From Clostridiales bacterium (GTDB lineage Bacteria > Bacillota > Clostridia > Christensenellales > Aristaeellaceae), in assembly GCA_015056265.1 (NCBI GenBank), contig SVGR01000002.1:1-51650 (forward strand): 51,650 nucleotides of DNA. The letters run 5' to 3'. Shown one piece after another: positions 28,058-46,319 of the stretch; within the stretch, counting starts at the first letter, position 1; every line of letters starts with the position of its first letter. Position numbers and translations under genes: made by a program. The notes under the pieces were generated by a model. That model did not search any database. It had not been told where the DNA came from and was given only the letters and a program-made list of their open reading frames with translations.

Positions 28058-28064
28058 AATAATG

Positions 28065-28086
28065 GTCCCATACAGATGGGACTTTT
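28065..28086 (+). terminator. Short terminator or attenuator after terD
   Basis: Stem GTCCCAT / ATGGGAC with a 4-base loop and a TTTTCTC tail, 8 bases past the stop. Confidence 0.75.
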
Positions 28087-28192
28087 CTCATTCCAGTGGT
28101 CAATTAAATTATTGCGGATTTGCCGGGCAGGCGTGGAAAACGCTTTGCTCGGCTGTCGCACATATGGCCCATCATACAAAAGGAGAAAGAAT

Positions 28193-28783
28193 ATGAGCCA
28201 GAACGGTAAAAAATTGAAAATCAGCTTTAATTCCCCGGCGGTGCTGGGCTTTACCGGTATTTGCCTGATTGCCATGCTGCTGGATTGGATCACAGGACAG
28301 GCATCCACCCGGCTGGTTTTCAGCGTATATAATTCTTCCCTTCTGGATCCGCTCACTTACGTTCGTTTCTTCGGGCATGTGTTCGGTCATGCGGATTGGG
28401 ATCATTTCCTGGGCAATATCATGTATTTCCTGATCCTGGGGCCCATGCTGGAGGAAAAATACGGCACTGCCAATACCATTTTTCTGGTGTTGGCCACCGC
28501 CCTGATTACTGGGCTCATCCAGTATATCTTCTTCCCCGGCGTGATGCTGCTGGGCGCCAGCGGCGTGGTATTTGCTCTGATTCTGTTGGCTTCCATTACC
28601 AGCGCCAAGGATAAGAATATCCCCGTCACCTTCATCCTGGTGGCCGGGCTCTACATCGGCCAGCAGGTTTATCAGGCCATCACCGTTCAGGGCAATATTT
28701 CCTATATGGCCCATATCGTGGGCGGTATTGTGGGCGCCGTACTGGGCTTCTTGATGAATCACTGGAAAATGAATCGTTATTGA
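28193..28783 (+). CDS. Rhomboid family intramembrane serine protease
   Basis: 196 residues and about six membrane helices, a minimal rhomboid. Cuts membrane-anchored substrates inside the bilayer. Conserved features: the HADWDHFLGNIMYF segment near residue 66 (family HWxHxxxN), nucleophile serine in LLGASGVVFA near 122, and catalytic His in YMAHIVGGIVGAVLGF near 172. AAAGGAGAAAGAAT precedes the ATG at 28193; the frame runs on upstream through the terminator and is not coding there. It lies between terD and the YceG-like gene, 14 bases before the latter, so it is probably functionally tied to the module. Confidence 0.88.
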   Translation: MSQNGKKLKISFNSPAVLGFTGICLIAMLLDWITGQASTRLVFSVYNSSLLDPLTYVRFFGHVFGHADWDHFLGNIMYFLILGPMLEEKYGTANTIFLVLATALITGLIQYIFFPGVMLLGASGVVFALILLASITSAKDKNIPVTFILVAGLYIGQQVYQAITVQGNISYMAHIVGGIVGAVLGFLMNHWKMNRY

Positions 28784-28797
28784 AGGGATGAACACAG

Positions 28798-31395: not shown

Positions 31396-31397
31396 AT

Positions 31398-32540
31398 ATG
31401 GGTCTTGATTTTACCAGGAAGCCTGCCCCCGTGGAAACTGCTGCTCCCGCACCCCAGCCGGAACCCGAAGTGGTGGAAAGCTATGATATCATTGCTGACC
31501 GGCAGGAAATGAACAAGGCGCTGACCAACGGCCCCGAAGTGGACGCCCTGGCCAGCACCATCGAAATCGACAATCTGGATACCATCGTTACTTTCGGTGC
31601 CAAGGCTGCTGAGGAAATCTCCAAGGCATCTGACGTGGTGCTCAACAGCATGAATATGACCCAGCTGGATGGGTCCAACGAAATGCTGGGCATCCTGGCC
31701 AAGATCATGGACAAGTTTGATATCGATGAAATCAAAGAGAATCCTTCCTTGTTTGGCAAGCTCTTCGGCGGCCTGCGCAAGCAGCTGGAAAAGATCCTTT
31801 CCAAGTATCATACCATGGGCGAAGAAGTGGATAAGATCTACGTGCAGCTCAAGCAGTATGAAAGCGAAATCAAGCAGTCCAACAAAAAACTGCAGACCAT
31901 TTTTGATGCCAACGTGCATTACTACCATGAACTGGTGAAGTATATCCTGGCCGGCGAACAGGGCTGTCGTGAAATTGAAGCGTACATGGCCCAGCGTCAG
32001 GCGGATATGGACGCTACCGGCGACCGTTCCATCCAGTTTGAATTGCAGTCCCTGCAGCAGGCCTTGATGATGCTGGAACAGCGTACCCAGGATCTGCGCA
32101 TTGCGGAAAATGTGGCCATGCAGTCCATCCCCATGATCAAGACCATGCAGTTCAGCAATATGAACCTGGTGCGCAAGATCAATTCCGCCTTCATCATCAC
32201 GCTGCCCGTGTTCAAGCAGGCCTTGGCCCAGGCCATCATGCTCAAACGTCAGCGCATCCAGGCTGAGGCTATGTCCGCTCTGGATGAAAAGACCAATGAA
32301 ATGCTGCTGAAGAACGCCCAGAATACCGCTGCTCAGGCTGTTATGACCACCCGTCTGGCCTCCGGCAACTCCATCAAGATCGAAACCCTGGAATCCTCCT
32401 GGCAGACCATTATGAAGGGCATCGAAGAAACCCGTCAGATTCAGGAAACTGCCAAGCGGCAGCGCAATGAGGATCAGGTGCGTCTGGAACGGATCAAGGA
32501 AGAATTCAACAAGAATTATCATATGCCCGCCAAGAAGTAA
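31398..32540 (+). CDS. telA: Toxic anion resistance protein TelA
   Basis: 380 residues, all-helical. TelA/YceH-family proteins are linked to tellurite and other toxic-anion tolerance and co-occur with TerD and YceG. Landmarks: Pro/Ala/Glu-rich N-terminus, ASTIEIDNLDTIVTFGAKAA near residue 50, a coiled-coil-like SKYHTMGEEVDKIYVQLKQY near 135, SNKKLQTIFDANVHYYHEL near 162 and the C-terminal TRQIQETAKRQRNEDQVRLE. AGAGGAAGATAAAT precedes the ATG, 2 bases after the upstream stop. It ends the module. Confidence 0.92.
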   Translation: MGLDFTRKPAPVETAAPAPQPEPEVVESYDIIADRQEMNKALTNGPEVDALASTIEIDNLDTIVTFGAKAAEEISKASDVVLNSMNMTQLDGSNEMLGILAKIMDKFDIDEIKENPSLFGKLFGGLRKQLEKILSKYHTMGEEVDKIYVQLKQYESEIKQSNKKLQTIFDANVHYYHELVKYILAGEQGCREIEAYMAQRQADMDATGDRSIQFELQSLQQALMMLEQRTQDLRIAENVAMQSIPMIKTMQFSNMNLVRKINSAFIITLPVFKQALAQAIMLKRQRIQAEAMSALDEKTNEMLLKNAQNTAAQAVMTTRLASGNSIKIETLESSWQTIMKGIEETRQIQETAKRQRNEDQVRLERIKEEFNKNYHMPAKK

Positions 32541-32974: not shown

Positions 32975-33060
32975 TGGTGCGAGTGGCGGGGATCGAACCC
33001 GCACGCCCAGAGGGCACAAGATTTTAAGTCTCGGTTGTCTGCCAGTTCCAACACACTCGC
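32975..33060 (-). tRNA. tRNA-Leu (anticodon UAA)
   Basis: 86 bases on the minus strand with encoded CCA. Acceptor stem GCGAGTG / CACTCGC, discriminator A, anticodon loop CTTAAAA (anticodon TAA) on stem CGAGA / TCTTG, a long class II variable arm (TGCCCTCTGGGCG region), and T arm GCGGGTTCGATCCCCGC. Reads UUA and UUG leucine codons. It has its own promoter and terminator and no other tRNA beside it. Confidence 0.97.
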
Positions 33061-33069
33061 GCAAAAAAC

Positions 33070-33099
33070 ATTATACTCTATATTCCCCCTTTACGTCAA
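33070..33099 (-). promoter_or_regulatory. Promoter of tRNA-Leu
   Basis: Minus strand TTGACG - 18 bases - TATAAT, ending 10 bases before the tRNA 5' end. Strong match expected of a stable RNA gene. Confidence 0.88.
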
Positions 33100-33120
33100 G
33101 TGAAAATCCTCTGCCACCGG

Positions 33121-33150
33121 TGGACAGCATTTGCTGTTCCGTGGTATAAT
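33121..33150 (+). promoter_or_regulatory. Sigma-A promoter of the vanW-type gene
   Basis: TGGACA - 18 bases - TATAAT, 85 bases before the start codon, divergent from the tRNA promoter. Confidence 0.7.
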
Positions 33151-33235: not shown

Positions 33236-34402
33236 ATGAAAAAGCTGTTGCTGCTCTTATGCCTGTTGCTGCTGCCCCTGACATATACGCTGGGGGAAGA
33301 AAACCATTTGTATACCGCTGTTACCAAATCGGAATTTCATCTGCGCCCCGCAAAGGAAGCACCGGATTTTTTATCCTACGTTCCAGTGGGAACCCGGGTC
33401 AGAATTTATGAAGTTTCCGGGGATTGGTGCCGGGCGGTGATCTTGGGAGAAGAAGGCTGGTGCAAGCTGCGGTGGCTGGATCATTTTTCTGCGGCGCATA
33501 TCCAGATGGAAGCGCAGTATGAAGCCATCACCCACAAGGAATTGAAGCTGCGGCTGCAGCCGGACAGCAGCATTGTGGTAGGTACAGCCCCTTACGACCG
33601 GTTTGTAGACGTCTATGAGTATGGGGAAGAATGGTGCCGGATCGGCTATGAAGACGTGGTAGGATGGTGTAAGACCAGTCAGCTGTGGGCTTTCCGATCC
33701 CTAAATGTGGCCAAGTATCCAGCGCTTCATGTGACACCCAATCTGGGGATGGTTACCCTCAGCCAGGAAGCATGGATTGCCAGCGATGATTTTGTGGGCA
33801 TGATGGCCCGGTCCGGTGCAATTATTTGCGTGCGTGCGGCGGATGATCATGCTTACTCCCTGCCGGTATGGCGCACGGAAGGAACTATATCCCGGGAGGC
33901 TGGGGAATTGATCCCCTTCATTCCTTGGGAGGAAGCCCAACCCGGTGATGTAATCGGCGGCTTCACTACCTTTTATGACGAAAACTACGGCAAGGATCTG
34001 GCCGCCAACCGGGCCTATAATATCGATCTGGCCTGCCGGCGAATCCATAATACTGTGATGCAGCCGGGGGATCACTTTTCCTATAATGCCTTATGTGCCC
34101 CGTACAAGGTGAGCAACGGTTATCTGATTGCCCCCAATATCAGCAAGTCCGGAAAAGGCTATGGCGGCGGTGTGTGTCAGCTGACCACTACCCTTTATAA
34201 CGCAATTTTGCCCCTGCCGCTGCAGATTGATGAATGGCGGGTGCATCAAAAGATCGGCGTGGTTTATATTCCCCAGTATTATGATGCGGCGGTTGGCAGC
34301 TTTTATGATCTGGAATTCAACAATACCTTGCCTTATCCCATCCGTATTTTTGCCCAGCCTCAGGAGGGGGCGGTAACGGTGCTGATCTACCGGGCGGAGT
34401 AA
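33236..34402 (+). CDS. Secreted VanW-domain protein with two SH3-like domains
   Basis: 388 residues. A signal peptide (KKLLLLLCLLLLPLTYTLG) leads to two SH3-like repeats at about 24-85 (SEFHLRPAKEAPDFLSYVPV) and 95-150 (ELKLRLQPDSSIVVG), likely wall-binding. The VanW domain follows at about 270-386, with NTVMQPGDHFSYN and GKGYGGGVCQLTTTLYNAI. VanW is named after an accessory gene of glycopeptide-resistance clusters, but its activity is unknown; most members are not resistance genes. AAGGAGGAAAT precedes the ATG; the frame is open further upstream but lacks a ribosome site. Its 3' 222 bases are duplicated at 43031-43252. Confidence 0.88.
   Translation: MKKLLLLLCLLLLPLTYTLGEENHLYTAVTKSEFHLRPAKEAPDFLSYVPVGTRVRIYEVSGDWCRAVILGEEGWCKLRWLDHFSAAHIQMEAQYEAITHKELKLRLQPDSSIVVGTAPYDRFVDVYEYGEEWCRIGYEDVVGWCKTSQLWAFRSLNVAKYPALHVTPNLGMVTLSQEAWIASDDFVGMMARSGAIICVRAADDHAYSLPVWRTEGTISREAGELIPFIPWEEAQPGDVIGGFTTFYDENYGKDLAANRAYNIDLACRRIHNTVMQPGDHFSYNALCAPYKVSNGYLIAPNISKSGKGYGGGVCQLTTTLYNAILPLPLQIDEWRVHQKIGVVYIPQYYDAAVGSFYDLEFNNTLPYPIRIFAQPQEGAVTVLIYRAE
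34166..34387 (+). repeat. Long direct repeat, left copy (vanW 3' end)
   Basis: Matches 43031-43252 without gaps at a constant offset of 8865 bases, with four mismatches seen by eye (about 98%). Similarity stops sharply at both ends; the right end is 15 bases before the vanW stop. Confidence 0.95.
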
Positions 34403-34435
34403 AGGGCGTTCATAACTCCCTCCCCCAAAAAATAA

Positions 34436-34487
34436 ATCCGGTGCAGTGAGCCTGCTATGCAGCACGGCTTTCGCACCGGATTTTTTT
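34436..34487. terminator. Bidirectional terminator between vanW-type gene and AraC regulator
   Basis: Stem ATCCGGTGC / GCACCGGAT with a long internal arm, A-run before and T-run after, between convergent genes. Confidence 0.85.
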
Positions 34488-34498
34488 CGTGCCCGGGA

Positions 34499-35353
34499 TC
34501 AGGGGGGGTCTTTCACCAGATCTTTGCGGAAACTCCGGGGAGACACGCCGAAATTCTTCTTGAAAAGGGAGGAAAAATAGGATAAATCGCTATAACCCAC
34601 TGTTTCGGCAATGGCCTGGATGCTCATCTCCGTTTCCAGCAGCAGCTCCTTTGCCCGGTTCATCCGCTTGACGATGATATAGGCTACCAGCGGAATCTGC
34701 ACATAATCATGGACGCATTTATAGAGATTGGAGCGGCTGATGAGAAAATGCTTGCACAGATCATCGATTTTGATGGATTCTTTGATGTGCATCATGATAT
34801 ATTCATCCAATTTGCTGATGAATTCGGTCTGGGATCGGGTGATGATTTTATCGGAATGCAGATAGAGGGCGATGGCATCCAGCAGCGTTTGATAGGCCTG
34901 GATCTTATTGATGGAAATGGTGGGGATACTTTCAATGGTTCGGGCCAGCAATTGGGGATCGCAGGGATAATTGGACAGGGTATTATTGAAAATTTTCATC
35001 CGCTCAAAGAGGGCGGTTTCTTTATACAGTGTCTGCCCGATGCGGATGAAGCCGATGGTGGCCCCGTCCCGCTGGATGGGGGCGATGGATTCGATCAGCC
35101 CGGCGTGGCAGGTGTAATTGTGCCGGCGCATGGTTTCCTTGGCAATATTGAAATTTATGGCGTCGCATTCCACACATTTGAGGAAAAAACGTTGGTCATG
35201 GGCACGCATCATTTTGCAGTAATCGCATTCGGTATCCGAAGGATAGCCTATAATGCAGACGCCGTTCATATCCAGCAGTCCGATCGCCATATCGGTCAGT
35301 TCATAAAAGGCCTTCATCATGGCCATAACTTTGTTCCTGTTAAGCAGCAGCAT
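34499..35353 (-). CDS. AraC family regulator with PocR sensor domain
   Basis: 284 residues. N-terminal PocR-type ligand/sensor domain at about 10-160 with its cysteine pattern CDYCKMMR, CVECDAINF and TCHAGLIESIAPI. The C-terminal AraC DNA-binding domain at about 185-280 has two helix-turn-helices: IDDLCKHFLISRSNLYKCVH and IAETVGYSDLSYFSSLFKK. PocR domains sense small hydrocarbon or sugar-like ligands, often in carbohydrate loci. GGAGGTGAC before the ATG is an excellent site. It is divergent from the solute-binding-protein gene and probably controls that transcript (see the repeats at 35535). Confidence 0.92.
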   Translation of the reverse strand: MLLLNRNKVMAMMKAFYELTDMAIGLLDMNGVCIIGYPSDTECDYCKMMRAHDQRFFLKCVECDAINFNIAKETMRRHNYTCHAGLIESIAPIQRDGATIGFIRIGQTLYKETALFERMKIFNNTLSNYPCDPQLLARTIESIPTISINKIQAYQTLLDAIALYLHSDKIITRSQTEFISKLDEYIMMHIKESIKIDDLCKHFLISRSNLYKCVHDYVQIPLVAYIIVKRMNRAKELLLETEMSIQAIAETVGYSDLSYFSSLFKKNFGVSPRSFRKDLVKDPP

Positions 35354-35373
35354 GCCGTCACCTCCGCTTCATC

Positions 35374-35382
35374 AGTATAACA
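35374..35382 (-). promoter_or_regulatory. Extended -10 promoter of the AraC regulator
   Basis: Minus strand TGT-TATACT, about 20 bases before the start codon; weak -35. Confidence 0.5.
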
Positions 35383-35433
35383 TAGAAACGAAAATTGCGA
35401 TAAAATTCATGAAATAAAGATACAATAACTAAA

Positions 35434-35566
35434 GTTTTCAAATAAAAATGCAAATTATGGTTGCATTGGCATGAAAAAAGGCGGAAATAAGGGCAAATCA
35501 AGAAAATTTTGCGCCGAATATTATGCTAATACTCATAGTTTGAAAACGGTTGTTTATAGTTTGGAA
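35434..35566 (+). promoter_or_regulatory. Candidate operator of the PocR/AraC regulator
   Basis: Two direct repeats, ATAGTTTGAAA (35535-35545) and ATAGTTTGGAA (35556-35566), are 21 bases apart start to start, which is two helical turns and typical of AraC-dimer sites. They end 11 bases before the TG of the downstream promoter. The 9-mer TTTGAAAAC of the first repeat recurs inverted at 35434-35442. The 324-base divergent gap holds otherwise AT-rich sequence. Confidence 0.55.
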
Positions 35567-35576
35567 GGTGGCAGAA

Positions 35577-35585
35577 TGCTATAAT
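35577..35585 (+). promoter_or_regulatory. Extended -10 promoter of the solute-binding-protein operon
   Basis: TGC-TATAAT, 92 bases before the start codon, with no good -35; this suits an activator-dependent promoter. Confidence 0.65.
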
Positions 35586-35677
35586 ATTTTCATCATGAAG
35601 CCGAAGAGGATCATAGATTTGCCCCGTGCACAGATCTGGATGCTGCAGGAATGCAGACAGTACAAGGAGGAAATAGG

Positions 35678-36922
35678 ATGAAAAGATGGATTGCATTTTT
35701 TCTGCTGGCGGCGCTTTTGGTATCGGCGCTTCCTGCCCTGGCGGACGAACGGAGTGATGAACTGTACAAGGCTATCAAGGGCACCACGGTGAAGATTCAT
35801 TTCTGCAATGAACCCACCGCCCTGGACAAAAAGATGATCAAGGCCTTTGAACTGAAATACCGCTGCAAGGTGGAGCCCTTTGTGATGACCTGGAACGATT
35901 GGAAAAACCAGATCCTCACCCTTGTGGTGGCGGGGAATGTGCCGGATGTGACCTCCGTTCCCGATGAGCCCTATCTCAAGTGGCTGTCCAATGGGCTTTT
36001 GCAGCCCCTGGATGATTATGTGATCGCCGATGACCCCATCTGGAATTCCCAGATTTGGGATATGACGGCCTGGGAGGGCAAGCATTACGGCGTCAGCGAT
36101 GGGGGTATTTCGCCTATCTATGTGATCTACAATGCCACGCTCTTCTACGAAAAGGGCGTGAAAAACCCCATGGAATATTACGAAGAGGGCAAATGGAACT
36201 TCAAGAATTTCCGCAAATGCGCCATTGAAATGACCGGCGATGGGATCGTTGGATGCGGCACGGACTGGAAATATACCTTTGCTCTGGCCAACGGCAATCC
36301 TATTGTAGAATTGGATCGGGAAAATGGGGAACTGAATCTGGTTCTCAATGAGGAAAACGCCGTTACCGGCATGGAACTGTATGTGGAATTGTACCAGGGC
36401 GGTTACTTTATGCAAGGCGCCTGCGCCATGCCCTTCGCCAATGGGGAACTGGCCATGTTCCTGGAACGGCCCGGCCTGATGGTGGGCGGCTATGACATGC
36501 GTAACACGACCCTCCAGAATGCTGAAATCGAATATGTTCCCATGCCCGTTGGCCCGGAAAATGATGAAGGGCTGGCCCCCTGCATCATCGGCTTCTGGAG
36601 CGTGCCCACCAAGGCGCAAAATCCTCTGGGTGGTATGGCCTGGGCCTACTTTGTAGCGGAATACAATGAAAAGCACAAGGATGATGAGGATGTGGTGGAG
36701 GGACGCCGCAAAACCTACACCGACGAACAATACGAATTCATCCGGGAATATGAAGAAAATACCACCTTCATCAATACCTTTGTCTACGGCGTGGGCGATT
36801 GGTATCAGGGGGATTGGGGTTATGCAGCCGATATGATCTTCAATGGCTTTACGCCCCAGGCGGCCTACGAAAAGTGGGAAAGCCAGTTCCAATTCTGGAT
36901 TGACGGGATGTTTATTGAATAA
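35678..36922 (+). CDS. Extracellular solute-binding protein (family 1, sugar type)
   Basis: 414 residues. Binds a sugar or oligosaccharide outside the cell and normally delivers it to an ABC permease. The signal peptide RWIAFFLLAALLVSALPALA ends in ALA-DE, a signal peptidase I site; no lipobox Cys is present, unusual for a Gram-positive binding protein, which is normally a lipoprotein. Body: KAFELKYRCKVEPFVMTW, GNVPDVTSVPDEPYLKWL near 90, and WSVPTKAQNPLGGMAWAYF near 309, as in MsmE/MalE-like proteins. AAGGAGGAAATAGG precedes the ATG. No permease or ATPase gene is nearby. Confidence 0.85.
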   Translation: MKRWIAFFLLAALLVSALPALADERSDELYKAIKGTTVKIHFCNEPTALDKKMIKAFELKYRCKVEPFVMTWNDWKNQILTLVVAGNVPDVTSVPDEPYLKWLSNGLLQPLDDYVIADDPIWNSQIWDMTAWEGKHYGVSDGGISPIYVIYNATLFYEKGVKNPMEYYEEGKWNFKNFRKCAIEMTGDGIVGCGTDWKYTFALANGNPIVELDRENGELNLVLNEENAVTGMELYVELYQGGYFMQGACAMPFANGELAMFLERPGLMVGGYDMRNTTLQNAEIEYVPMPVGPENDEGLAPCIIGFWSVPTKAQNPLGGMAWAYFVAEYNEKHKDDEDVVEGRRKTYTDEQYEFIREYEENTTFINTFVYGVGDWYQGDWGYAADMIFNGFTPQAAYEKWESQFQFWIDGMFIE

Positions 36923-36976
36923 ATCGGCATCCTTTCACTCATAGGACGTTACAACAAAAAGGAAAGAGGGATTTGA

Positions 36977-39850
36977 ATGAAAAAATGGTTCTCAATCATG
37001 CTCTGCATCGCCATGGTTCTGACGATGGTTCCTGCCGCCTTGGCGGAGGAAGCTGCCCCTGAACAGCAGACTGCTCCGGTGATTCCCGTGGCGGGAAGAC
37101 TGCTGGATTTCGAAACCGAAGATGCGGTGAAGGCCGCTACCGGCAATACCAATAAGAACTGGACCGTTTCTTACACCAATGACCATGCGGCCACGGGAAA
37201 TGGCGCTGTGGAATTTTCCTCCGAAACGGATGTGCACTGGGGCAACCAGATCTGGCTGAACCTGGGCAATGGCCTTGGGGACAGCGATGCGGCGTACGCC
37301 ACCTACATCGGCTTCCACATTCAGGCCGCCAAGGGCGCAGCCAACAACACCAAGCGAGGCAACGATTTCCTGATGCAGGATATCCAGATCACCGCTGACG
37401 GCGCCTGGTATACCCTGGTGGGCGGCTCCACCTACTATTGCCTGGCTGACGGCACCAACCAGTGGGTGCAGGATACCACCGATTTCTCCGCCCTGATGCT
37501 GGAAAGCGGCTTCTCCGGCTATGTGTTCATCCCCATCGCTTCCTTTGAAGCCGGCGGCGAAGCCCTGGATCCTGCCAAGGTGTTCTCCAAGAAGAACGCT
37601 ACCTTCCTCGTTTATCACGTCCATGCGGCTGGCGGCGACTACGGCTCCATCTACATGGATACCGTTTGCTACTCCACTGCTCCCGCTCTGGGCGGCGCGC
37701 TGCGGAATTTTGAAACGGAAGATGAAGTGAAGGCTGCCACCGGCAACTCCAGCAAGAGCTGGACCATTTCCTACAGCAATGAACACGTGGGCACCGGCAC
37801 GGGTTCCCTTCAGGTTTCCGCTGAAACGGATGTGCATTGGGGAAATCAGGTCTGGATCGATCTGGGTTCCAAGCTGGGCCAGACTGATATCGTGAACGCC
37901 GGCTTTATCGGCTTCCATATCCAGGCCGCCAAGGGCGCTGCCAACGGCAGCCGCCGCCCCGATGCATTCCTGCTGCAGGATATCCAGATCACCGCTGAGG
38001 GCGCTTGGTATACCTTTACCGGCGGCGCTTCCTACTATTGCCTGGCCGATGGCAGCAACCAGTGGACCAGCGATACCCTGGACGGCAATACCCTTATGCT
38101 GGACAGCGAATTCAGCGGCTATGTGTATCTGCCCTTCTCCGGTTTCCAGGCTGGCGGCGAAACCATGAATCCCGCCGAGGCTTTCTCCAAGGATGGGAGC
38201 ACCTATTTCGTCTTCCATGTCAATGCTGCCGGCGGCGAATACGGCTCCTTCTGGCTGGATAACATCGCCTATCAGCAGGGTTTTGTGATGCCGGAAGCCG
38301 GTGAAAAGGTGGAAGAAATCCTGTACGAAGATATCGACGCCGTTTCCTATGCCGTGGATCAGGCTGCCATCAAGGCCGTTAACGGCGAAGGAGCCCTGCC
38401 TGCTGCCCAGGAAGCCGTGCTCCTGGTGGACTTTGAAGAACTGGACGCCGATAAGTATTATCCCATCTACGCTGCCGATCGTACCCAGAAGGAATTCTCC
38501 AAGCTGCATACCGGTACCGGTATGTACGCCATGAAGGTGTACAGCGGCAAGGAACGCAATTGGGACGGCGCGGTGAACTACATGGTGATGGGCGACGGCA
38601 TTGCCAATGAAGGCACTCCTGCCGCCGATGCCAAGTGGTTCGGCTATCATATCAAGACCCCCAACGTGCCCAATTTCCAGATTCAGGACGTGCAGCTGAC
38701 CGCTGCCAGCCAGTGGTACACTTTGAAGGGCGGCGCAGATTACTATTACCTGGAGGATGGCGCTTCCCAGTGGCAGAAGGGCGAAACCAAGGGATCTTCT
38801 ACCTTCCTGCCTGCCAATTGGAGCGGCTTTGTGGCCTTCCGCGTTGAAGATTTCATCAGTGACAGCAAGACCCTGGTGTTTGGTGAACTGTTTGGCTCTA
38901 ACCGCCGGGCCATTTGCCAGGTACACTACAATCTGATGGGCGGCCCCCACGGCTCCGTGTTTGTGGACAGCTATTTTGTGCTGACCGATGAACTGGATCC
39001 CGCTGCCGCTACCCTCACCCAAAACGGTGAATACCTGGCCGGTCTCACTGCCGCTCCCGTGAACGACGTGCTCAAGACTGTGGCCGCCAGCGAAAAGATT
39101 CTGAAGATCGCCGGAGAACGCATCTATGCCCGGGAAAACACCGTGGCTGGCTTTAAGGCCCTGCTGACTGCTGAAGGCTGCGAAATCGCTGTGACCAAGG
39201 AAGGCGAAGCCGCTTCCGACGATGAAGCCCTGGCCCAGGGCATGGTGGTTACCGTTTCCAAGGACGGCGCAGCCATCGCTGCCTACTACGTGGCGGATGT
39301 GGCCAAGACCCCCGATCCTTCCGTTGTCTTCGCTCTCACCCTCAAAGAAGGTGATGAAAAACTGGGTGGTGTGGCTATCGATGAACATGGCATCTCCTGC
39401 CAGAATCTGAAGGCTGACGAATTGATCGCTGATAAGTTCAATGTGCCCTTCGGCACTGTGGCCCACGTGTTCAAGGATGGCGTGATGATGGACGGCGCTA
39501 CCCCCGTGGAAGAAGGCATGACCCTGCGCTGCTATGACGAGTGTGAACCCGAACTGTACTTTGAACTGGTCTTTGCCAATGTAGGCGTGATCGACTTCAC
39601 CAATGGTTATGCTCTGCAGCTGGCTGAAGGCGCTGCGGCTGCCATTGACGGCGGCGTTATCACCGTACCCGCCGGCACCACCGTTGAAGACCTGTGCGCC
39701 ATGCTGATCTATGTTGGCGCTGAGGATATGGGTCTGGTTCTGGATGCTGACGAATTCCCGATGGATGATGATGAAGTGATTGAAGCCGGTTGGATCCTGC
39801 TGATCGTGGACGATATGTTTGACGAACTGGCCCGCTGGACCATCCAGTAA
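36977..39850 (+). CDS. Large secreted protein with three carbohydrate-binding-like repeats
   Basis: 957 residues; no family recognised with confidence. A signal peptide (about 1-23) is followed by three repeats of about 190 residues at roughly 42-233, 241-432 and 480-672. Repeats one and two are closely alike (LLDFETEDAVKAATGN / LRNFETEDEVKAATGN; TDVHWGNQIW / TDVHWGNQVW; IGFHIQAAKGAAN in both; QDIQITA). The third keeps LVDFEELD, WFGYHIKTP and IQDVQLTA. Each looks like a beta-sandwich of the galactose-binding/CBM type (inference). A C-terminal part at 680-957 has three smaller repeated beta modules. There is no sortase signal or membrane anchor. It follows the binding-protein gene by 54 bases. 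Confidence 0.8.
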   Translation: MKKWFSIMLCIAMVLTMVPAALAEEAAPEQQTAPVIPVAGRLLDFETEDAVKAATGNTNKNWTVSYTNDHAATGNGAVEFSSETDVHWGNQIWLNLGNGLGDSDAAYATYIGFHIQAAKGAANNTKRGNDFLMQDIQITADGAWYTLVGGSTYYCLADGTNQWVQDTTDFSALMLESGFSGYVFIPIASFEAGGEALDPAKVFSKKNATFLVYHVHAAGGDYGSIYMDTVCYSTAPALGGALRNFETEDEVKAATGNSSKSWTISYSNEHVGTGTGSLQVSAETDVHWGNQVWIDLGSKLGQTDIVNAGFIGFHIQAAKGAANGSRRPDAFLLQDIQITAEGAWYTFTGGASYYCLADGSNQWTSDTLDGNTLMLDSEFSGYVYLPFSGFQAGGETMNPAEAFSKDGSTYFVFHVNAAGGEYGSFWLDNIAYQQGFVMPEAGEKVEEILYEDIDAVSYAVDQAAIKAVNGEGALPAAQEAVLLVDFEELDADKYYPIYAADRTQKEFSKLHTGTGMYAMKVYSGKERNWDGAVNYMVMGDGIANEGTPAADAKWFGYHIKTPNVPNFQIQDVQLTAASQWYTLKGGADYYYLEDGASQWQKGETKGSSTFLPANWSGFVAFRVEDFISDSKTLVFGELFGSNRRAICQVHYNLMGGPHGSVFVDSYFVLTDELDPAAATLTQNGEYLAGLTAAPVNDVLKTVAASEKILKIAGERIYARENTVAGFKALLTAEGCEIAVTKEGEAASDDEALAQGMVVTVSKDGAAIAAYYVADVAKTPDPSVVFALTLKEGDEKLGGVAIDEHGISCQNLKADELIADKFNVPFGTVAHVFKDGVMMDGATPVEEGMTLRCYDECEPELYFELVFANVGVIDFTNGYALQLAEGAAAAIDGGVITVPAGTTVEDLCAMLIYVGAEDMGLVLDADEFPMDDDEVIEAGWILLIVDDMFDELARWTIQ

Positions 39851-39862
39851 TTACGATTCGAT

Positions 39863-39896
39863 GGGGGAGGCGGTCATGGATCGCCTCTCCCTTTTC
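39863..39896 (+). terminator. Hairpin with T-run between two genes of the island
   Basis: Stem GGGGGAGGCG / CGCCTCTCCC and TTTTC tail, 13 bases after the stop. Partial readthrough would let the next two genes be made at lower level. Confidence 0.75.
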
Positions 39897-39921
39897 ATTA
39901 TCCAGTCATCAGGAGAATGCC

Positions 39922-41370
39922 ATGAGAAGAGCTATTGCGTGTTTATGCGTATTGCTGATGCTGTCCGCATCGGCCTTGGCGGAGGAAAAAATCTTTCGCT
40001 TTGATTCTGCGCCCCTCAGCGGAGACAATGCCCGTCAGATGCTGATGAACCCCGACCGTGGCCTGCGGCTGGAAGTATATCTGACGCTGGGAACGGCCAA
40101 ATATGTGCCTGACATGTTCGACAGCACCGGAAACTTCCGGGATCCCGTTCTGGCAAGGGACGCCATTCCCATGCTGTTGGATTTGATTGCCGAGTATGAA
40201 CCGGAATCCCCCCGGGTGGCCCAGGCCTATTTCTATCTCACTGAATACCAAAACCGGGATCTGGACCAGACGGCCATTGATAACATGAACGCTTATTTCC
40301 AGGTGTGCCGGGAGCAGAAGATCACCCTGGCCCTGCGGTTCGTCTATGTGTACAATCAGGGCCGGGATTACAAGCAGGAAGTGGTAAGCCTGGATCAGAT
40401 GATGCGCCACATGGAGCAAATTAAGCCCGTCCTTGCCGCTAATCGAGATTGCATTTCCTGGGTTCAGGCGGGGTTCGTAGGGGAATGGGGCGAATGCTCC
40501 CCCAATTCCCGGTGGAATAAGGAAGGCAAGCTGGGGGAAATCCTGGACGCCATCGTGCAGATGGTGCCTAAGGACGTATGGGTGACCACCCGCTACACCT
40601 GGGGACGGAAGCAGGCATCGGTGCTTGCCCGATCCAGAATCGGCTATCACGATGATTATGTGGTGGGCTTTTCCCATTATTGGGGCACTGCCGGGCAGTG
40701 GGAAAGCGATGAATATAACGATTTCACCGCCCTTTCCGGAAAAGTTTTGATGGAGGGCGAAATGCCCTGGGGCGGCGAATTTGCCAATCCGGATGTGTGG
40801 GGCGTGGCCAAGTATCTTGCCGATCTGCATTTTACTGCCTTCAGCCTGTATCATCACTACCGGGAATACGGCGTGGGGTACAGCCTGTATCAGGCCCGCA
40901 GCATCCAGGTGACCCGGGAAAACCTGGCGGAACACGGCCTGCCCGTGCCATATGACGCCTGGTTCCAGAACCAGGACGGCACTGATTGCTTCCGCAGCCT
41001 GTTTGATTACATCCAGGATTTTCTGGGGTATCACATCCAGCTGGATGCTGCGCAGGCGGTCCTTTCTGGAGACAAGGTGTATCTTACCTTTGACATGACC
41101 AATTACGGCTTTGCGGCCCCGCTGCTGATGAAATCCATGGAGGCGGTGCTGCTGGATGCGGAAGGCAACATTGCCGCCCGGAAGGATATCGCCAAATTGA
41201 GCAAGATCCAGCCCGGGGAAAGCATGACCTTTGAGGTGAACCTGGATCTGCCCAGCGCGGAAAACTACCGGCTGGGGATCCTCTTCACCAATGCGGCGGG
41301 TACCGGCGCCCGGCTGGCGAATGATCTGGCGTTTGAAAACGGCGTCAATATCCTGGGTGAATTGTATTGA
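39922..41370 (+). CDS. Secreted DUF4874/DUF4832-type barrel protein
   Basis: 482 residues. A signal peptide (RRAIACLCVLLMLSASALA) is followed by a probable TIM barrel with LMNPDRGLRLEVYLTL near residue 40, then QAGFVGEWGECSPNSRW near 181, where the GEWGE acids sit where retaining glycosidases carry catalytic Glu. A C-terminal beta domain starts near 375 (VYLTFDMTNYGFAAPLL). DUF4874/DUF4832 proteins resemble glycoside hydrolases, but to my knowledge none has a well-established substrate, so the reaction is open. AGGAGAATGCC precedes the ATG. Confidence 0.75.
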   Translation: MRRAIACLCVLLMLSASALAEEKIFRFDSAPLSGDNARQMLMNPDRGLRLEVYLTLGTAKYVPDMFDSTGNFRDPVLARDAIPMLLDLIAEYEPESPRVAQAYFYLTEYQNRDLDQTAIDNMNAYFQVCREQKITLALRFVYVYNQGRDYKQEVVSLDQMMRHMEQIKPVLAANRDCISWVQAGFVGEWGECSPNSRWNKEGKLGEILDAIVQMVPKDVWVTTRYTWGRKQASVLARSRIGYHDDYVVGFSHYWGTAGQWESDEYNDFTALSGKVLMEGEMPWGGEFANPDVWGVAKYLADLHFTAFSLYHHYREYGVGYSLYQARSIQVTRENLAEHGLPVPYDAWFQNQDGTDCFRSLFDYIQDFLGYHIQLDAAQAVLSGDKVYLTFDMTNYGFAAPLLMKSMEAVLLDAEGNIAARKDIAKLSKIQPGESMTFEVNLDLPSAENYRLGILFTNAAGTGARLANDLAFENGVNILGELY

Positions 41371-41385
41371 TAAGGAGACATACTG

Positions 41386-42882
41386 ATGGATAACAGAAAA
41401 CGCTTATTCAATGATCAGCTATTTCTGGATGAAAGCAAAGGCAGATTCGTGGATCTGCGTCACATCCAGGATGACCGGCGCATTCTGAAAAATCCCCACA
41501 AGGGATGGTACTGGCATTATGTGGAGAGCGGGTTTTTTGATGCTGAGCATACCCTGGATGTTTCCGGCCGTTGGATGGAGGATTATCATCAGGGCTATGA
41601 GTACTTCGACCGGGACGGCAGATACCTGATCCTGGACGATGTGACGGATTTCCCCGGTCTCAATCATCTGTATCTGCGCTTTACCTGGGGCGATATCGAG
41701 CACGAAATGGGTGTGTACGATTGGACCCCGGTGGATAGGATCATCAACGCCTGGAGCAAGAAGGGCTATACGTTTGCCATGCGGGTGACCACCTACATGG
41801 GCAATCTGTTTCCCGCTACCCCCCAGTACGTCCTGGATATGGGGGCAAAAACCAAGGATTTGTACCTCGATCAGATGTGGAGCAAGGAACCCGTCTATGA
41901 CGATCCCATTTATCTGGAGCGGCTGACCGCCTTCATGGAGGCGTACGGCAAGAAATTCAACGGCGATCCGCGGATCGAATACATCGATATGGGTACTTTC
42001 GGCACCTGGGGCGAGGCCAGCGCCAGCACCCTGTATTCCACCAATGTGATCAAAAAGCATATTGATCTTCATCTGGATAATTTCCCCGATACCTATATCA
42101 TGATCAATGACGATTATTTTGCCAATCGGGTTGGCCGTGAGATGCGGCCGGGGGAAACCCAGGAACTGCTCAATTACGTAAAGGACAAAGGGATGACCCT
42201 CCGGGACGATTCCATCGGCTACACTCCCTATGTGGACCGGGGCAATTATCACAATCTGCTGGTGCCCACAGTGTTTGACGCGCTGTATGATAACGGCCCC
42301 ATCGATATTGAATTTGACCATTCCTACCGCTATGAAACCTTGAAATGCGCCGATGGTGAAAGCGCCTTCCAGGATGGCTTCCGGGGCCTGGCCGCGCTGG
42401 AGCGGGGAAGGGTGACCTTTGCCGGGTTCCATAACTATCCCCGGAAATTCCTGGAACTGCACAACGGCATGGCCAAATACTGTGCCAATCGACTGGGATA
42501 CTGGTATTTCCTGGAGGGAATGCAGATCCCTGAGTGGAAGGCCGGGGAACAGGCGGAATGCACCTTGTATCTGACCAACCGCGGCTTCGCTCACGCCAAT
42601 CACCGCTATGCGCTGAAGCTGCGTTTCGTATCCAAGGAGCGGGATGAGGCCATTGAGGTGCTCTGCGACCAGACGGATAACAGAACCTGGGAGCCTAACG
42701 GCGTCGCCAGCTTTGACCGAGCCGTGGTGGAGAATATCCGATTCTCCTTGGAAAAGGTGCCTGCCGGGGCGTATACCTTACAGCTGGGTCTTTTCGATAA
42801 GGAACGGCCGGTGCATTTCGGCGTGTTCGAGGATCTGGATGAAGAGGGTTGGGTTACCATCGATCAGGTGAACGTGCTGTAA
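41386..42882 (+). CDS. Cytoplasmic DUF4832-type barrel protein
   Basis: 498 residues, no signal peptide. Same layout as the preceding protein: LKNPHKGWYWHYVESG near residue 35, LRFTWGDIEHEMGVYDW near 100 (beta-galactosidase-like), YIDMGTFGTWGEASAS near 198, and a C-terminal beta domain from about 385 (CTLYLTNRGFAHANHRYAL). I infer a paralogous, glycosidase-like pair, one outside and one inside the cell. TAAGGAGAC lies before the ATG, 15 bases after the upstream stop, so they share a transcript. Confidence 0.75.
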   Translation: MDNRKRLFNDQLFLDESKGRFVDLRHIQDDRRILKNPHKGWYWHYVESGFFDAEHTLDVSGRWMEDYHQGYEYFDRDGRYLILDDVTDFPGLNHLYLRFTWGDIEHEMGVYDWTPVDRIINAWSKKGYTFAMRVTTYMGNLFPATPQYVLDMGAKTKDLYLDQMWSKEPVYDDPIYLERLTAFMEAYGKKFNGDPRIEYIDMGTFGTWGEASASTLYSTNVIKKHIDLHLDNFPDTYIMINDDYFANRVGREMRPGETQELLNYVKDKGMTLRDDSIGYTPYVDRGNYHNLLVPTVFDALYDNGPIDIEFDHSYRYETLKCADGESAFQDGFRGLAALERGRVTFAGFHNYPRKFLELHNGMAKYCANRLGYWYFLEGMQIPEWKAGEQAECTLYLTNRGFAHANHRYALKLRFVSKERDEAIEVLCDQTDNRTWEPNGVASFDRAVVENIRFSLEKVPAGAYTLQLGLFDKERPVHFGVFEDLDEEGWVTIDQVNVL

Positions 42883-42889
42883 AATACGG

Positions 42890-42955
42890 ATTGCCAAAGT
42901 AGAAAGCAAACGAGCTTCCGGCGCCTGCTGGAAGCTTGTTTGCTTTAATGGCAAT
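42890..42955 (+). terminator. Long hairpin closing the island operon
   Basis: Inner 17-bp stem at 42903-42919 / 42930-42946 with one G-T pair and a 10-base loop, outer ATTGCCA / TGGCAAT. The 3' arm is T-rich but no U-run follows. It is either an atypical terminator or a structured element end. Confidence 0.55.
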
Positions 42956-43028
42956 GGGAATTATGTAAAAATGTAAATAATGATGGATTTATTATTGACA
43001 AACGGAAGATTATCGCTTTTTATAATCA

Positions 43029-43270
43029 TGGGCGGTGTGTGCCAGCTGACCACTACCCTTTATAACGCAATTTTGCCCCTGCCGCTGCAGATTGATGAAT
43101 GGCGGGTGCATCAGAAGATCGGCGTGGTTTATATTCCTCAGTATTATGATGCGGCGGTTGGCAGCTTTTATGATCTGGAATTCAACAATACCTTGCCTTA
43201 TCCCATCCGTATTTTTGCCAAGCCTCAGGAGGGGGCGGTAACGGTGCTGATCATTAGAAACGAAGAATAA
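43029..43270 (+). pseudogene. Truncated copy of the VanW-domain gene (3' fragment)
   Basis: Eighty codons encoding the last part of the VanW domain, from GGVCQLTTTLYNAI to VTVLI, then five unrelated residues and a stop. It lacks signal peptide, SH3 domains and the first two thirds of the VanW domain, so it cannot be a working protein. Only one residue differs within the copied part (Q to K in AKPQEG). The frame is open back to an ATG at 42980 but without homology or ribosome site. TTGACA at 42997 with TATAAT 20 bases on precedes it; spacing is poor. Confidence 0.9.
43031..43252 (+). repeat. Long direct repeat, right copy
   Basis: Partner of 34166-34387 in the same orientation. The four substitutions are at about 43042, in the CAGAAG and CCTCAG segments, and in GCCAAG. 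Confidence 0.95.
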
Positions 43271-43285
43271 AGATGTTTTCAGCAA

Positions 43286-43338
43286 TGAAAAAACGGTGCG
43301 GTATCCCTGCATGTATTGCGGGGTACAGCACCGTTTTT
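43286..43338. terminator. Bidirectional terminator between vanW fragment and thioredoxin-reductase gene
   Basis: Stem ACGGTGC / GCACCGT with inner TATCCC / GGG..TA pairing, AAAAA before and TTTTT after. Confidence 0.85.
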
Positions 43339-43392
43339 CCGAAACATGAAAAACAGAGGGAAGAGATGCGCCGACAGCAGGGGAGGCGGGGC

Positions 43393-44649
43393 TTATTTGC
43401 CTGCCAGATATTCCTCGGCCATATGCACTGCCATGGCACCGTCGGCTACCGCCGTCACTACCTGGCGCAGTTTTTTCGTGCGCACATCGCCCACGGCGTA
43501 GACGCCGGGGAGGGAGGTTTCCGTGGTTTCACCGGCTACGATGTAGCCGTTTTCCAGCAGCAATTGCCCTTCCGCCAATTGACTGGCAGGCTTGCGGCCG
43601 ATACTGACAAACACGCCGTCGCAGGGCACTTCCGTTTCTTCTCCGGTGAGGGTATTGCGCAGAAGAATGCCGGTAAGCTGCCGGTCGTTGTGGCGCAGTT
43701 CCTTTACTTCGTTGTTCCAGTGGAAGGTCACATTTTCGGCATCCATCAGGGGCTGATGATAGATTTTCGTGGCTCGCAGCTGATCCCGGCGATGCACTAC
43801 AATGACCTGTTTGGTGATACGGCTGAGCAGCAGCGCATCTGCAGCGGCGGTATCGCCGCCACCGATTACAGCCACTACCTTATCCCGGTAGAACATGCCA
43901 TCACAGGCGGCGCAATAGGCAATGCCTTTGCCCAGCAAATCCTTTTCACAGGGCAATCCCAACTCACGGGGGGTGGCGCCGGTGGCCAACACGACGGTTT
44001 TGGCATATATAAGGCCGTCGCTGGTGCTTATTTCTTTAATATCGCCGGAAAGCAGGGCCTGCTGCACAGTGGCAATTTTGGTTTTTGCACCGAATCGCTC
44101 CGCCTGGGCCCGCATTTGCTGGGCCAGGTCATAGCCCTCCACACCTTCGGGAAAGCCGGGATAATTGTCGATCTGGTGGGTCAGCGCCATCTGACCGCCG
44201 GCCGAAAGCTGCTCCACAAGCAGTACGTCCAATCCTGCGCGGGCTGCATACAGCGCCGCCGTGTAGCCGCCGGGCCCGCCGCCGATAATGATCATATCGT
44301 GGATATGGGCGTCTGTCAGCTGCTGCTTTGTGGGCAGATGCGGAGCAAGGAAACGATCAATATCCGCTTTGGCGGGCGGCTCCACAATTTGCCCCAGCAC
44401 TTCGCCCTTCCGATACAGCCGCAGGGTAGGGATGCGGCGAATTTCTTCCCGCTCCCGGATGCCGGGGAACAGATCCACATTGATTTTTACCACGGTCATC
44501 CGGCCGGCATGCTCATCGGCAATTTCATCATAAGGGCCCGCAATCCGGCGGCAGTCACCGCACCAGGGGGCCCAGAAATCCACCAGCAGCATCTCTTCGC
44601 TGGCAATGAGTGGATGAAGCTGTTGTTCGTTAATAGTGATTGCTGCCAT
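43393..44649 (-). CDS. Thioredoxin - thioredoxin reductase fusion
   Basis: 418 residues. Residues 1-105 are a thioredoxin domain with DFWAPWCGDCRRIAG (CGDC instead of the usual CGPC) and the cis-Pro segment RRIPTLRLY. Residues 112-418 are a reductase of the TrxB type: FAD loop IIGGGPGGYTAALYAARAG, redox site YCAACDG, NADPH loop VIGGGDTAAADALLL, and C-terminal GVYAVGDVRTK. It should pass electrons from NADPH through FAD to its own thioredoxin domain. The ATG at 44649 follows AAAGGA; 61 further in-frame codons upstream lack homology. Monocistronic between a terminator and a divergent promoter. Confidence 0.93.
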   Translation of the reverse strand: MAAITINEQQLHPLIASEEMLLVDFWAPWCGDCRRIAGPYDEIADEHAGRMTVVKINVDLFPGIREREEIRRIPTLRLYRKGEVLGQIVEPPAKADIDRFLAPHLPTKQQLTDAHIHDMIIIGGGPGGYTAALYAARAGLDVLLVEQLSAGGQMALTHQIDNYPGFPEGVEGYDLAQQMRAQAERFGAKTKIATVQQALLSGDIKEISTSDGLIYAKTVVLATGATPRELGLPCEKDLLGKGIAYCAACDGMFYRDKVVAVIGGGDTAAADALLLSRITKQVIVVHRRDQLRATKIYHQPLMDAENVTFHWNNEVKELRHNDRQLTGILLRNTLTGEETEVPCDGVFVSIGRKPASQLAEGQLLLENGYIVAGETTETSLPGVYAVGDVRTKKLRQVVTAVADGAMAVHMAEEYLAGK

Positions 44650-44739
44650 GGTGACGCATCCTTTCGCTGTTGATCTTACATTCATTTTATACCCGAAAAT
44701 GCATCGCTCGAATCGGAGAAAGGGACCAATTTGCTTTTT

Positions 44740-44768
44740 AGTATAGCAGACAAAGGATGATACCACAA
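44740..44768 (-). promoter_or_regulatory. Promoter of the thioredoxin-reductase fusion
   Basis: Minus strand TTGTGG - 17 bases - TATACT with an extended -10 TGC, about 90 bases before the start. Confidence 0.55.
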
Positions 44769-44847
44769 GATGTGCGGCAAAAAAAGGCAGATTCCAATGA
44801 ATTATTTTAATTGTTAAGAAAAAATGTAACAAATTCGTATCAAAAGG

Positions 44848-44876
44848 TTGACAAATGATAAAAAATCGATTTTAAT
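44848..44876 (+). promoter_or_regulatory. Promoter of the FAD-dependent oxidoreductase gene
   Basis: TTGACA - 17 bases - TTTAAT, 45 bases before the start. Perfect -35, moderate -10. The 272-base divergent gap is otherwise AT-rich and empty. Confidence 0.65.
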
Positions 44877-44921
44877 AATCGTGGGTGTATTTGCCCATAT
44901 CCTTGAAATGCGGTGAATGAA

Positions 44922-46319
44922 ATGAAAACAGATATTTTGATTGTGGGCGCGGGCCCTGCCGGTATTTTTACTGCGTTGGAGATGCTGCGCCAGGGGAGCC
45001 GGAAAAAAATAGTAATCGTGGAAAAAGGTGCCGCCATTGAGCGCCGTCACTGCCCCAAGGTGAAGACCGGGGAATGCATGAACTGCAAGCCTTATTGCCA
45101 TATCACCACCGGCTTTTCCGGGGCCGGTGCGTTTTCCGATGGCAAGCTATCCCTTTCCTACGAAGTAGGCGGCCAGCTGCCCGAATTGATCGGTGAAGAT
45201 TATGCACAAAAAATGATTGATTACACCGATAAGATTTATTTGGAATTTGGCGCCGATTCCCATGTGGAAGGGATCGGTCAGGGAGAAGAAATCAAAAAGA
45301 TTCGTCTGCGGGCCATCCGGGCGGGTTTGAAACTGGTGGATTGTCCCATTCGACATCTGGGTACTGAAAAGGCTCAGCAACTGTATCATGCCATTCAACA
45401 GCATCTGGTTGAAAACGGCGTGGAGATTTATTTCGGCTATAACTGCAACAACCTTTTGCTGGACGGTCAGCGCTGCATCGGCGTTGAAGTGGAGCATAAG
45501 GGCGTTAAGGAAGAGATCCGAGCTGAGCATACGGTGGTGGCCACCGGCCGCCGGGGCGCCGACTGGCTGGAAAAACTGTGCGGAGAGCATGGCATCGCCC
45601 ATCAGCCCGGCACCGTGGATATCGGCGTTCGGGTAGAGGTGCGCAATGAAGTCATGGAAACCGTCAACCGTGTGTTATACGAAAGCAAGCTGGTGGGCTA
45701 TCCCAAGCCCTTCAAGGATAAGGTGCGCACCTTCTGCCAGAATCCCGGCGGCTTTGTGAGCCAGGAGAATTATGATAACGATTTGGCGGTGGTGAATGGG
45801 CATTCCTACAAGGATTTAAAAACGGAGAATACCAATCTGGCCATTCTCTGCTCCCACAATTTCACCCATCCCTTCAATCAGCCTATCGCCTACGCCCAGA
45901 AAGTAGGGGAATTGACCAACATGTTGGGCAGCGGGAAGATCATGGTGCAGCGCTTCGGGGATATTCTGGATGGCAAGCGCACCTGGCAGAAGGAATTGGT
46001 GCGCGCCAATGTGCGCCCCACTTTGCCCGATGCTGTAGCGGGGGATATCACTGCTGCCATGCCTTACCGGGCCATGACCAATATCATCCACTTTATGCAG
46101 GCCATGGATGAAGTGGTGCCCGGTTTCGCCGGCTCTGAAACGCTGCTCTATTCTCCGGAACTGAAATTCTATTCCAATAAGATTCGTATGGATGCGGAAA
46201 TGAATACCAATATCCAGGGCCTGTACTGCCTGGGCGATTCCAGCGGATGGACCCGCGGCCTGATGATGGCCTCTGTGATGGGCGTTATTATGGGCCAGCA
46301 ACTGTCCAGGAAGGCCTGA
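44922..46319 (+). CDS. NAD(P)/FAD-dependent oxidoreductase, COG2509 type
   Basis: 465 residues. FAD-binding loop DILIVGAGPAGIFTAL at the N-terminus, VVATGRRGADWL near residue 205, and a C-terminal GLYCLGDSSGWTRGLMMASV that closes the flavin site. This pattern fits the widespread, uncharacterised COG2509 flavoproteins. A cysteine group CPKVKTGECMNCKPYC near residue 45 could bind a metal or serve in redox. GGTGA lies 5 bases before the ATG at 44922; GTG at 44913 is possible. It is divergent from the thioredoxin-reductase fusion, which suggests a redox theme but does not prove it. Confidence 0.85.
   Translation: MKTDILIVGAGPAGIFTALEMLRQGSRKKIVIVEKGAAIERRHCPKVKTGECMNCKPYCHITTGFSGAGAFSDGKLSLSYEVGGQLPELIGEDYAQKMIDYTDKIYLEFGADSHVEGIGQGEEIKKIRLRAIRAGLKLVDCPIRHLGTEKAQQLYHAIQQHLVENGVEIYFGYNCNNLLLDGQRCIGVEVEHKGVKEEIRAEHTVVATGRRGADWLEKLCGEHGIAHQPGTVDIGVRVEVRNEVMETVNRVLYESKLVGYPKPFKDKVRTFCQNPGGFVSQENYDNDLAVVNGHSYKDLKTENTNLAILCSHNFTHPFNQPIAYAQKVGELTNMLGSGKIMVQRFGDILDGKRTWQKELVRANVRPTLPDAVAGDITAAMPYRAMTNIIHFMQAMDEVVPGFAGSETLLYSPELKFYSNKIRMDAEMNTNIQGLYCLGDSSGWTRGLMMASVMGVIMGQQLSRKA

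Follow-up and report, generated by a model that had tools for sequence, protein, structure and literature searches.

Homology-facilitated illegitimate recombination is known from E. coli, where partial duplications of the homologous gene were present in most recombinants and measured 109–950 base pairs (bp) in the 14 that were sequenced (PMC3240628). These duplications were attributed to single crossover of circles missing part of the homologous segment, and the non-homologous junctions usually fell at microhomologies of 3–10 bp (PMC3240628). Homology-facilitated illegitimate recombination was also proposed for displaced genes in Vibrio cholerae (PMC5361080). Excision through flanking repeats has also been described (PMC5426353, PMC7843796), in one case without a recombinase of the element's own (PMC5426353). 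We analyzed a stretch of 51,650 bp, hereafter the window, from contig SVGR01000002.1 of a Clostridiales bacterium (assembly GCA_015056265.1). It contains a block of sugar-type genes, the cargo, between an intact VanW-domain gene (vanW) and a 5'-truncated copy of its 3' part, which share a 222-bp direct repeat. Further right are a thioredoxin/thioredoxin-reductase fusion gene (TrxR) and a gene for a FAD-dependent protein (the FAD gene). The block looks like a natural recombination scar.

Unconventional circularizable structures are defined by direct repeats that bracket a cargo without a recombinase gene of its own, and the cargo in the window is bracketed in this way and holds no such gene. 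Like them, it could in principle leave as a circle with one repeat, but it does not consist of resistance genes and its repeat is only 222 bp at 98.2% identity (PMC7843796). The E. coli H47 genomic island likewise has no recombinase gene and carries imperfect flanking repeats, of 148 and 144 bp (PMC5426353). Excision of H47 was detected by polymerase chain reaction and was RecA-independent (PMC5426353). Read as a fusion of two haplotypes, as proposed below, the locus would share with the E. coli recombinants one homologous and one non-homologous junction, a partial duplication (222 bp) and the lack of a mobility gene. It differs from them in that the event is deduced from one genome and 8.6 kb separates the copies (PMC3240628). 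With the type VI secretion arrays of V. cholerae it would share incoming DNA anchored in a gene whose old 3' part was pushed downstream of the new genes. It differs in the VanW-domain gene, the sugar-type cargo and the single remnant, with no array (PMC5361080).

The direct repeat and its cargo

The intact gene (33236–34402, + strand) encodes a protein with SH3_3 and VanW domains (Pfam VanW 5.9e-32). Its open reading frame (ORF) as listed begins with TTG at 33131. The start is probably ATG at 33236, judging from a promoter-like site at 33121–33150 in a scan that found 18 sites against 10.6 expected. The protein scores 32.8 bits, far short of the NCBIfam equivalog cut-off of 365 for the VanW of glycopeptide resistance.

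Pairwise comparison places the left repeat copy inside this gene (34166–34387, +) and the right copy at 43031–43252 (+). As the preliminary description had reported, the copies are gap-free with a constant offset of 8865, and the likeness breaks off abruptly at either end. They are identical at 218/222 positions and differ at 34177, 34249, 34273 and 34355, with three of the changes synonymous. Exact runs within the repeat reach 81 bp; another measures 71 bp. A DNA search of the same genome with the repeat recovered the second copy at E = 3.9e-107 and no third copy at E <= 0.001. The repeat had been described as the last 222 bases of vanW. It does lie in the 3' part of the gene, but it ends 15 bp short of the stop codon. 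The C-termini consequently differ, VLIYRAE before the stop in the left copy and VLIIRNEE in the right. The right copy, a vanW fragment truncated at its 5' side, runs in frame into a stop codon of its own that ends at 43270 (fragment ORF, Pfam VanW 1.7e-16). AT-rich sequence other than vanW borders it on both sides, and there is no vanW homology left of 43031. Beyond the 222 bp, the only repeat of at least 9 bp joining the block ends is a 9-bp inverted match.

Five genes lie between the copies, with the content first described for them confirmed by Pfam. A PocR-sensor/AraC regulator (34499–35353, − strand) is followed on the + strand by an extracellular solute-binding protein of the SBP_bac_8 family (35651–36922), a 957-amino acid (aa) protein with internal repeats and no Pfam family (36977–39850), a DUF4874/DUF4832 protein, type a (39922–41370), and a DUF4832 protein, type b (41386–42882). 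Secretion of the 957-aa protein was judged by eye from its N-terminus. Internal repeats in its gene are 600 bases apart with 75–80% identity (37100–38065). A hairpin seen by eye at 42903–42946 (+), missing from the terminator-scan matches, is a possible right edge of the cargo.

None of the five cargo proteins has a recombinase domain in Pfam, and no integrase, transposase or recombinase was reported among the 40 window proteins scanned, a set without the genes at 25032–25919 and 27479–28057, most ORFs below ~150 aa and overlapping ORFs of the opposite strand. This agrees with the earlier statement that the block holds no integrase or transposase. The closest approach to a recombinase is a resolvase-HTH match below the cut-off, in the AraC regulator. 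With no mobility gene found, general recombination is implied. The block could instead be what is left of a site-specific integrative element whose attachment site was the 3' end of vanW and whose integrase is gone, and an intact gene at one end with a truncated copy at the other would suit such a relic. However, the scanned proteins include no recombinase, the repeat stops before the gene end, the copies end differently and the 3' end is not restored. Usual core attachment sites are also shorter than 222 bp. We consider this candidate extremely unlikely. The structure first described for the locus stands, but a dedicated integrating element finds no support, given also the core-like composition of the cargo and the lack of TrxR in a related genome, both presented below.

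The cargo does not look recently foreign. Sixteen neighboring core genes served as the reference for a comparison that the preliminary description had suggested as a check. The GC content at third codon positions (GC3) of the cargo is 0.649–0.694 and its codon scores are 0.013 to 0.069, against a core range of −0.126 to 0.054 for the scores; both measures are within or slightly above the core range. Overall GC is not below the core range of 0.507–0.597 in any cargo gene except the regulator (0.483), the sole deviation. A recent foreign origin was therefore rejected.

The same genome contains a larger sugar locus, of which the cargo is a shortened collinear paralogue at 43–71% aa identity. This sister locus is on contigs C77 and C5, whose ends hold apparent halves of one DUF4832 gene, so that the two contigs may form one locus. 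The shared gene order is regulator (43%), three binding proteins (67–69%), a homologue of the 957-aa protein (63%), permeases, DUF5696, type a DUF4832 genes, GH35 and two type b genes; regulator, binding proteins and the 957-aa homologue are on C77. The nearest kin of the window DUF4832 genes are C5:5139-6587 for type a (60%) and C5:393-1877 for type b (71%). The hairpin at 42903–42946 resembles, by eye, one on C5 that follows the final gene of the sister locus. No permease is found beside the cargo binding protein, which may be served by the permeases on C77. The cargo is probably a set of binding and surface proteins under PocR/AraC control that uses the permeases of the sister locus.

The sister locus (L123, L078 and L077; G000 C77 and C5) follows genes identified by eye as NusG- and L1-like. 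It also holds a Yip1-domain protein and several type a DUF4832 genes in a row, and its contigs carry GH35 and an alpha-galactosidase-like gene. A second scar at its edges was considered and rejected: no gene fragment was seen by eye at the C77 edge, and the C5 edge is near the contig end.

The vanW-FAD interval in related genomes

The source genome is probably a metagenome-assembled genome (MAG). Its draft assembly has 176 contigs totalling 2.36 Mb, with 77.65% completeness and 5.13% contamination. We compared the locus with 28 other genomes of the genus; no second strain of the same species was found. A truncated second vanW copy was seen in none of the 28, in one pass that scored the first 14 candidates per genome and a second that scored all. 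G005 and G006 each carry a pair of comparable full-length VanW genes. A tandem pair was considered as a source of the repeat; in both genomes the pairs sit on different contigs.

The best vanW match in the genus, at 63% aa identity, is in G003, a MAG from goat colon. Its gene row is tRNA-Leu(TAA), vanW, FAD gene (91% aa), YkuD (77%) and LacI (84%). The vanW-FAD interval of G003 contains neither the cargo, nor the vanW fragment, nor TrxR. Homology to G003 picks up again at 44847, so the difference spans ~34403–44846, TrxR included. The left repeat copy is part of an intact vanW, whose orthologue in G003 occupies the same site. A search of relatives for an empty site had been proposed as a check, and the G003 locus, with vanW and no cargo or fragment, answers it in part. 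However, TrxR is missing as well and G003 is another species, and its locus may serve as an approximate empty site only. The FAD-YkuD pair occurs in 12/12 fetched regions that hold the FAD gene. Among the 11 with a visible upstream side, vanW is upstream of the FAD gene only in G003, and TrxR in none (0/11). Six of the seven vanW loci inspected show a downstream ORF, and these differ from one another by eye.

Comparison with G003 also bears on the ages of the parts. The left and right vanW copies differ from G003 at 50/222 and 49/222 positions, respectively, and from each other at 4/222, which points to a duplication that is young relative to the split from G003, unless it was reset by gene conversion. 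The cargo and sister-locus proteins differ by 29–57%, which makes the cargo far older than the scar. Judged against 14 orthologue rows, the commoner codon is that of the right copy at site 1 (12/14), but that of the left copy at site 3 (10/14) and at site 4 (5/14 against 0/14 for the right). With this mixed polarity, neither copy is clearly older.

Draft quality raises the possibility of an assembly artefact, in which two strains, or an empty site and another molecule, were joined through the repeat. The contig number, completeness and contamination given above allow for this. Against it, the four mismatches split the repeat, leaving exact runs of at most 81 bp, and outside the repeat the cargo-vanW junction shows no overlapping sequence from which an assembler could have made a false join. 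We consider an artefact very unlikely.

The type a DUF4832 protein has no match in the 28 other genomes of the genus (E <= 1e-10), in 299 other genomes of the family (E <= 1e-20) or in 390 of the class (E <= 1e-30), and one match at 30% identity in 397 of the phylum (E <= 1e-20); these samples overlap. The 957-aa protein was found in 0/28 other genus genomes (E <= 1e-5) and gave a single weak match to solved structures (E 0.048). No solved structure was found for either DUF4832 protein.

A proposed fusion of two haplotypes

The AT-rich spacer before the right copy (42961–43030, +) resembles the FAD promoter region at 44814–44883. The native promoter core (44848–44885, +) is recognizable in relatives. 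By eye, the promoter region (44821–44903 in the window) is marked there by a TGTAACA-like box and TTGACA/TATAAT, in many cases also by a GGGC...GCCC leader. Spacer and native promoter share an ungapped core match of 29/38. The scanned loci, 333 kb in all, are rich in FAD regions; apart from self matches and the native promoter, they reach 24 or more matching positions only immediately before the FAD genes of G009 and G002. With a score of 46, the native FAD region tops a ranking of 470 upstream regions (450 controls and 20 FAD), and the FAD set exceeds 65 AT-matched controls in likeness to the spacer (p = 8e-4). Resampled spacers matched the FAD promoter as well in 1/3000 cases; for the part upstream of the −35 box alone the figure is 175/3000, which is not significant. 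At the junction the spacer reads ATGGGC, like several FAD leaders. These likenesses suggest that the spacer may be a displaced FAD promoter, in which case the cargo would once have been directly between vanW and the FAD gene.

We tentatively favor, at somewhat less than an even chance, that the repeat is the scar of fusing two haplotypes of the vanW-FAD interval at one non-homologous junction. In haplotype 1 the stretch from vanW to the FAD promoter would have held the sugar cluster, in haplotype 2 the TrxR gene. They would have been joined at 43030/43031, where the FAD leader of haplotype 1 would meet the middle of vanW of haplotype 2 at ~3 bp, GGC. This microhomology of 3 bp is conditional on the spacer being a FAD leader. 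Left of the join would be tRNA-Leu, the intact vanW, the cargo and the displaced FAD promoter; right of it, the vanW 3' fragment, TrxR, the native FAD promoter and the FAD gene. Two pathways could produce this order. In one, DNA from a close relative would come in by homologous recombination on one side and illegitimate recombination on the other. In the other, a trimmed fragment would be end-joined to a circle, which would then enter by single crossover. Neither would need a dedicated mobility gene. Either haplotype may have been the resident one; the composition of the cargo agrees with its being old.

Alternatively, as the preliminary description had it, the cargo may have travelled as a circle with a vanW 3' piece and entered vanW by single crossover, leaving repeats that still allow excision. 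The geometry, an intact gene, 8.6 kb and a 5'-truncated copy, fits this model, as do the exact runs within the repeat and the vanW-FAD arrangement of G003 without cargo. Islands and cargo units between long direct repeats are also reported to excise without a recombinase of their own (PMC5426353, PMC7843796). However, such a circle presupposes that a cargo end had been joined illegitimately to the middle of vanW beforehand, the GC3 and codon use of the cargo are not foreign, and TrxR is missing in G003 as well. No carrier was seen for the DUF4832 protein: phage carriage was rejected with no matching phage record, and plasmid carriage with matches in 5 plasmid records that do not exceed 28% identity. 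In viral contigs, the type a DUF4832 protein had one weak match of 34 aa, the 957-aa protein, vanW and the type b DUF4832 protein had no relative, and exact-pattern scans for the repeat and for the junction gave nothing. We regard the circle model as rather unlikely.

The fragment could also be unrelated to the arrival of the cargo, a 222-bp vanW piece copied by template switching to the right of cargo already resident. The AT-rich non-vanW sequence on both sides of the right copy agrees with this, as do the absence of a third copy in the genome and, by eye, ATCAT on both sides, the right one overlapping the last 3 bases of the repeat. Against copying, the in-frame end, an Arg in the right-copy tail that is found in 13/13 distinct orthologues, and a hairpin beyond it (seen by eye, absent from the terminator scan) suggest a gene end. 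The Arg indicates that this tail may be a real gene end, and together with the three synonymous differences it counts in favor of the haplotype fusion. Template switching also leaves the presence of cargo and fragment together between vanW and the FAD gene unexplained, and we find it unlikely.

Several observations weigh against the haplotype fusion. All inferences on this locus come from one draft genome, and neither predicted haplotype was seen. The left C-terminus (YR) is the commoner form, in 8/13 orthologues. No recognizable relative of the right tail and right flank was found in 13 vanW downstream regions, in the TrxR flanks of three relatives or in a search of the genus. Spacer and native promoter differ at 9/38 positions but the vanW copies at 4/222, which calls for different ages or later gene conversion. 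The test of the spacer was devised after the resemblance had been noticed, and the best control upstream region scores 40 against 46. In a scan with a profile built from the FAD promoters of 19 relatives, the spacer comes first after the 12 true promoters, but at E = 0.3, with the next unrelated hit at 0.57, which is not significant alone. In the flank comparisons (26 tests), the best result, right flank against L037, was equalled by 1/300 shuffles. The genus-wide flank search (E up to 1) gave short matches only, except in G005 and G011, where they run ~15 bp past the repeat.

Neighboring genes and possible exchange at the interval

The TrxR fusion gene is at 43393–44649 on the − strand (Pfam, NCBIfam); its ORF is listed to 44832, with the likely start at 44649. 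Elsewhere the fusion is found on other contigs of G003 and G004, and in G001, at 68–73%. Strong matches (E below 1e-190) occur in 4/29 genus genomes, the own genome counted. The FAD gene (44913–46319, +; Pfam) directly follows vanW in G003.

To the left of vanW is tRNA-Leu(TAA) (32975–33060, −; ARAGORN), and 32975–33107 is 87% identical to G003 locus L022 at 9735–9866. In the same locus of G003 an integrase-like ORF, recognized by eye, is beside tRNA-Arg(CCT) at 19464–21086, ~8 kb from vanW. TerD-like (by eye), rhomboid, YceG and TelA genes adjoin tRNA-Leu in the window (27479–32540), and the YceG-domain gene contains a 42-bp tandem repeat at 29460–29702. TelA is found at E <= 1e-40 in only 2/28 other genus genomes, where the cluster is away from vanW.

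Excision of the block through the repeat is possible. More broadly, the vanW-FAD interval could be an exchange site of this lineage without a recombinase, in which haplotypes with the sugar cluster, with TrxR or with nothing would be swapped and stacked through general recombination that uses vanW and the FAD gene as anchors, and from which the sugar cluster could leave reversibly as a circle via the 222-bp repeat. We consider this wider proposal decidedly unlikely. Here the junction itself can be seen, as can a relative that lacks the insertion and a sister locus of greater age. The locus may thus offer a readable case of how a sugar-type locus is gained or shuffled without mobile elements in uncultured Clostridia. 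If the haplotypes and the excision are true, it would be natural homology-anchored gene capture outside model competent species.

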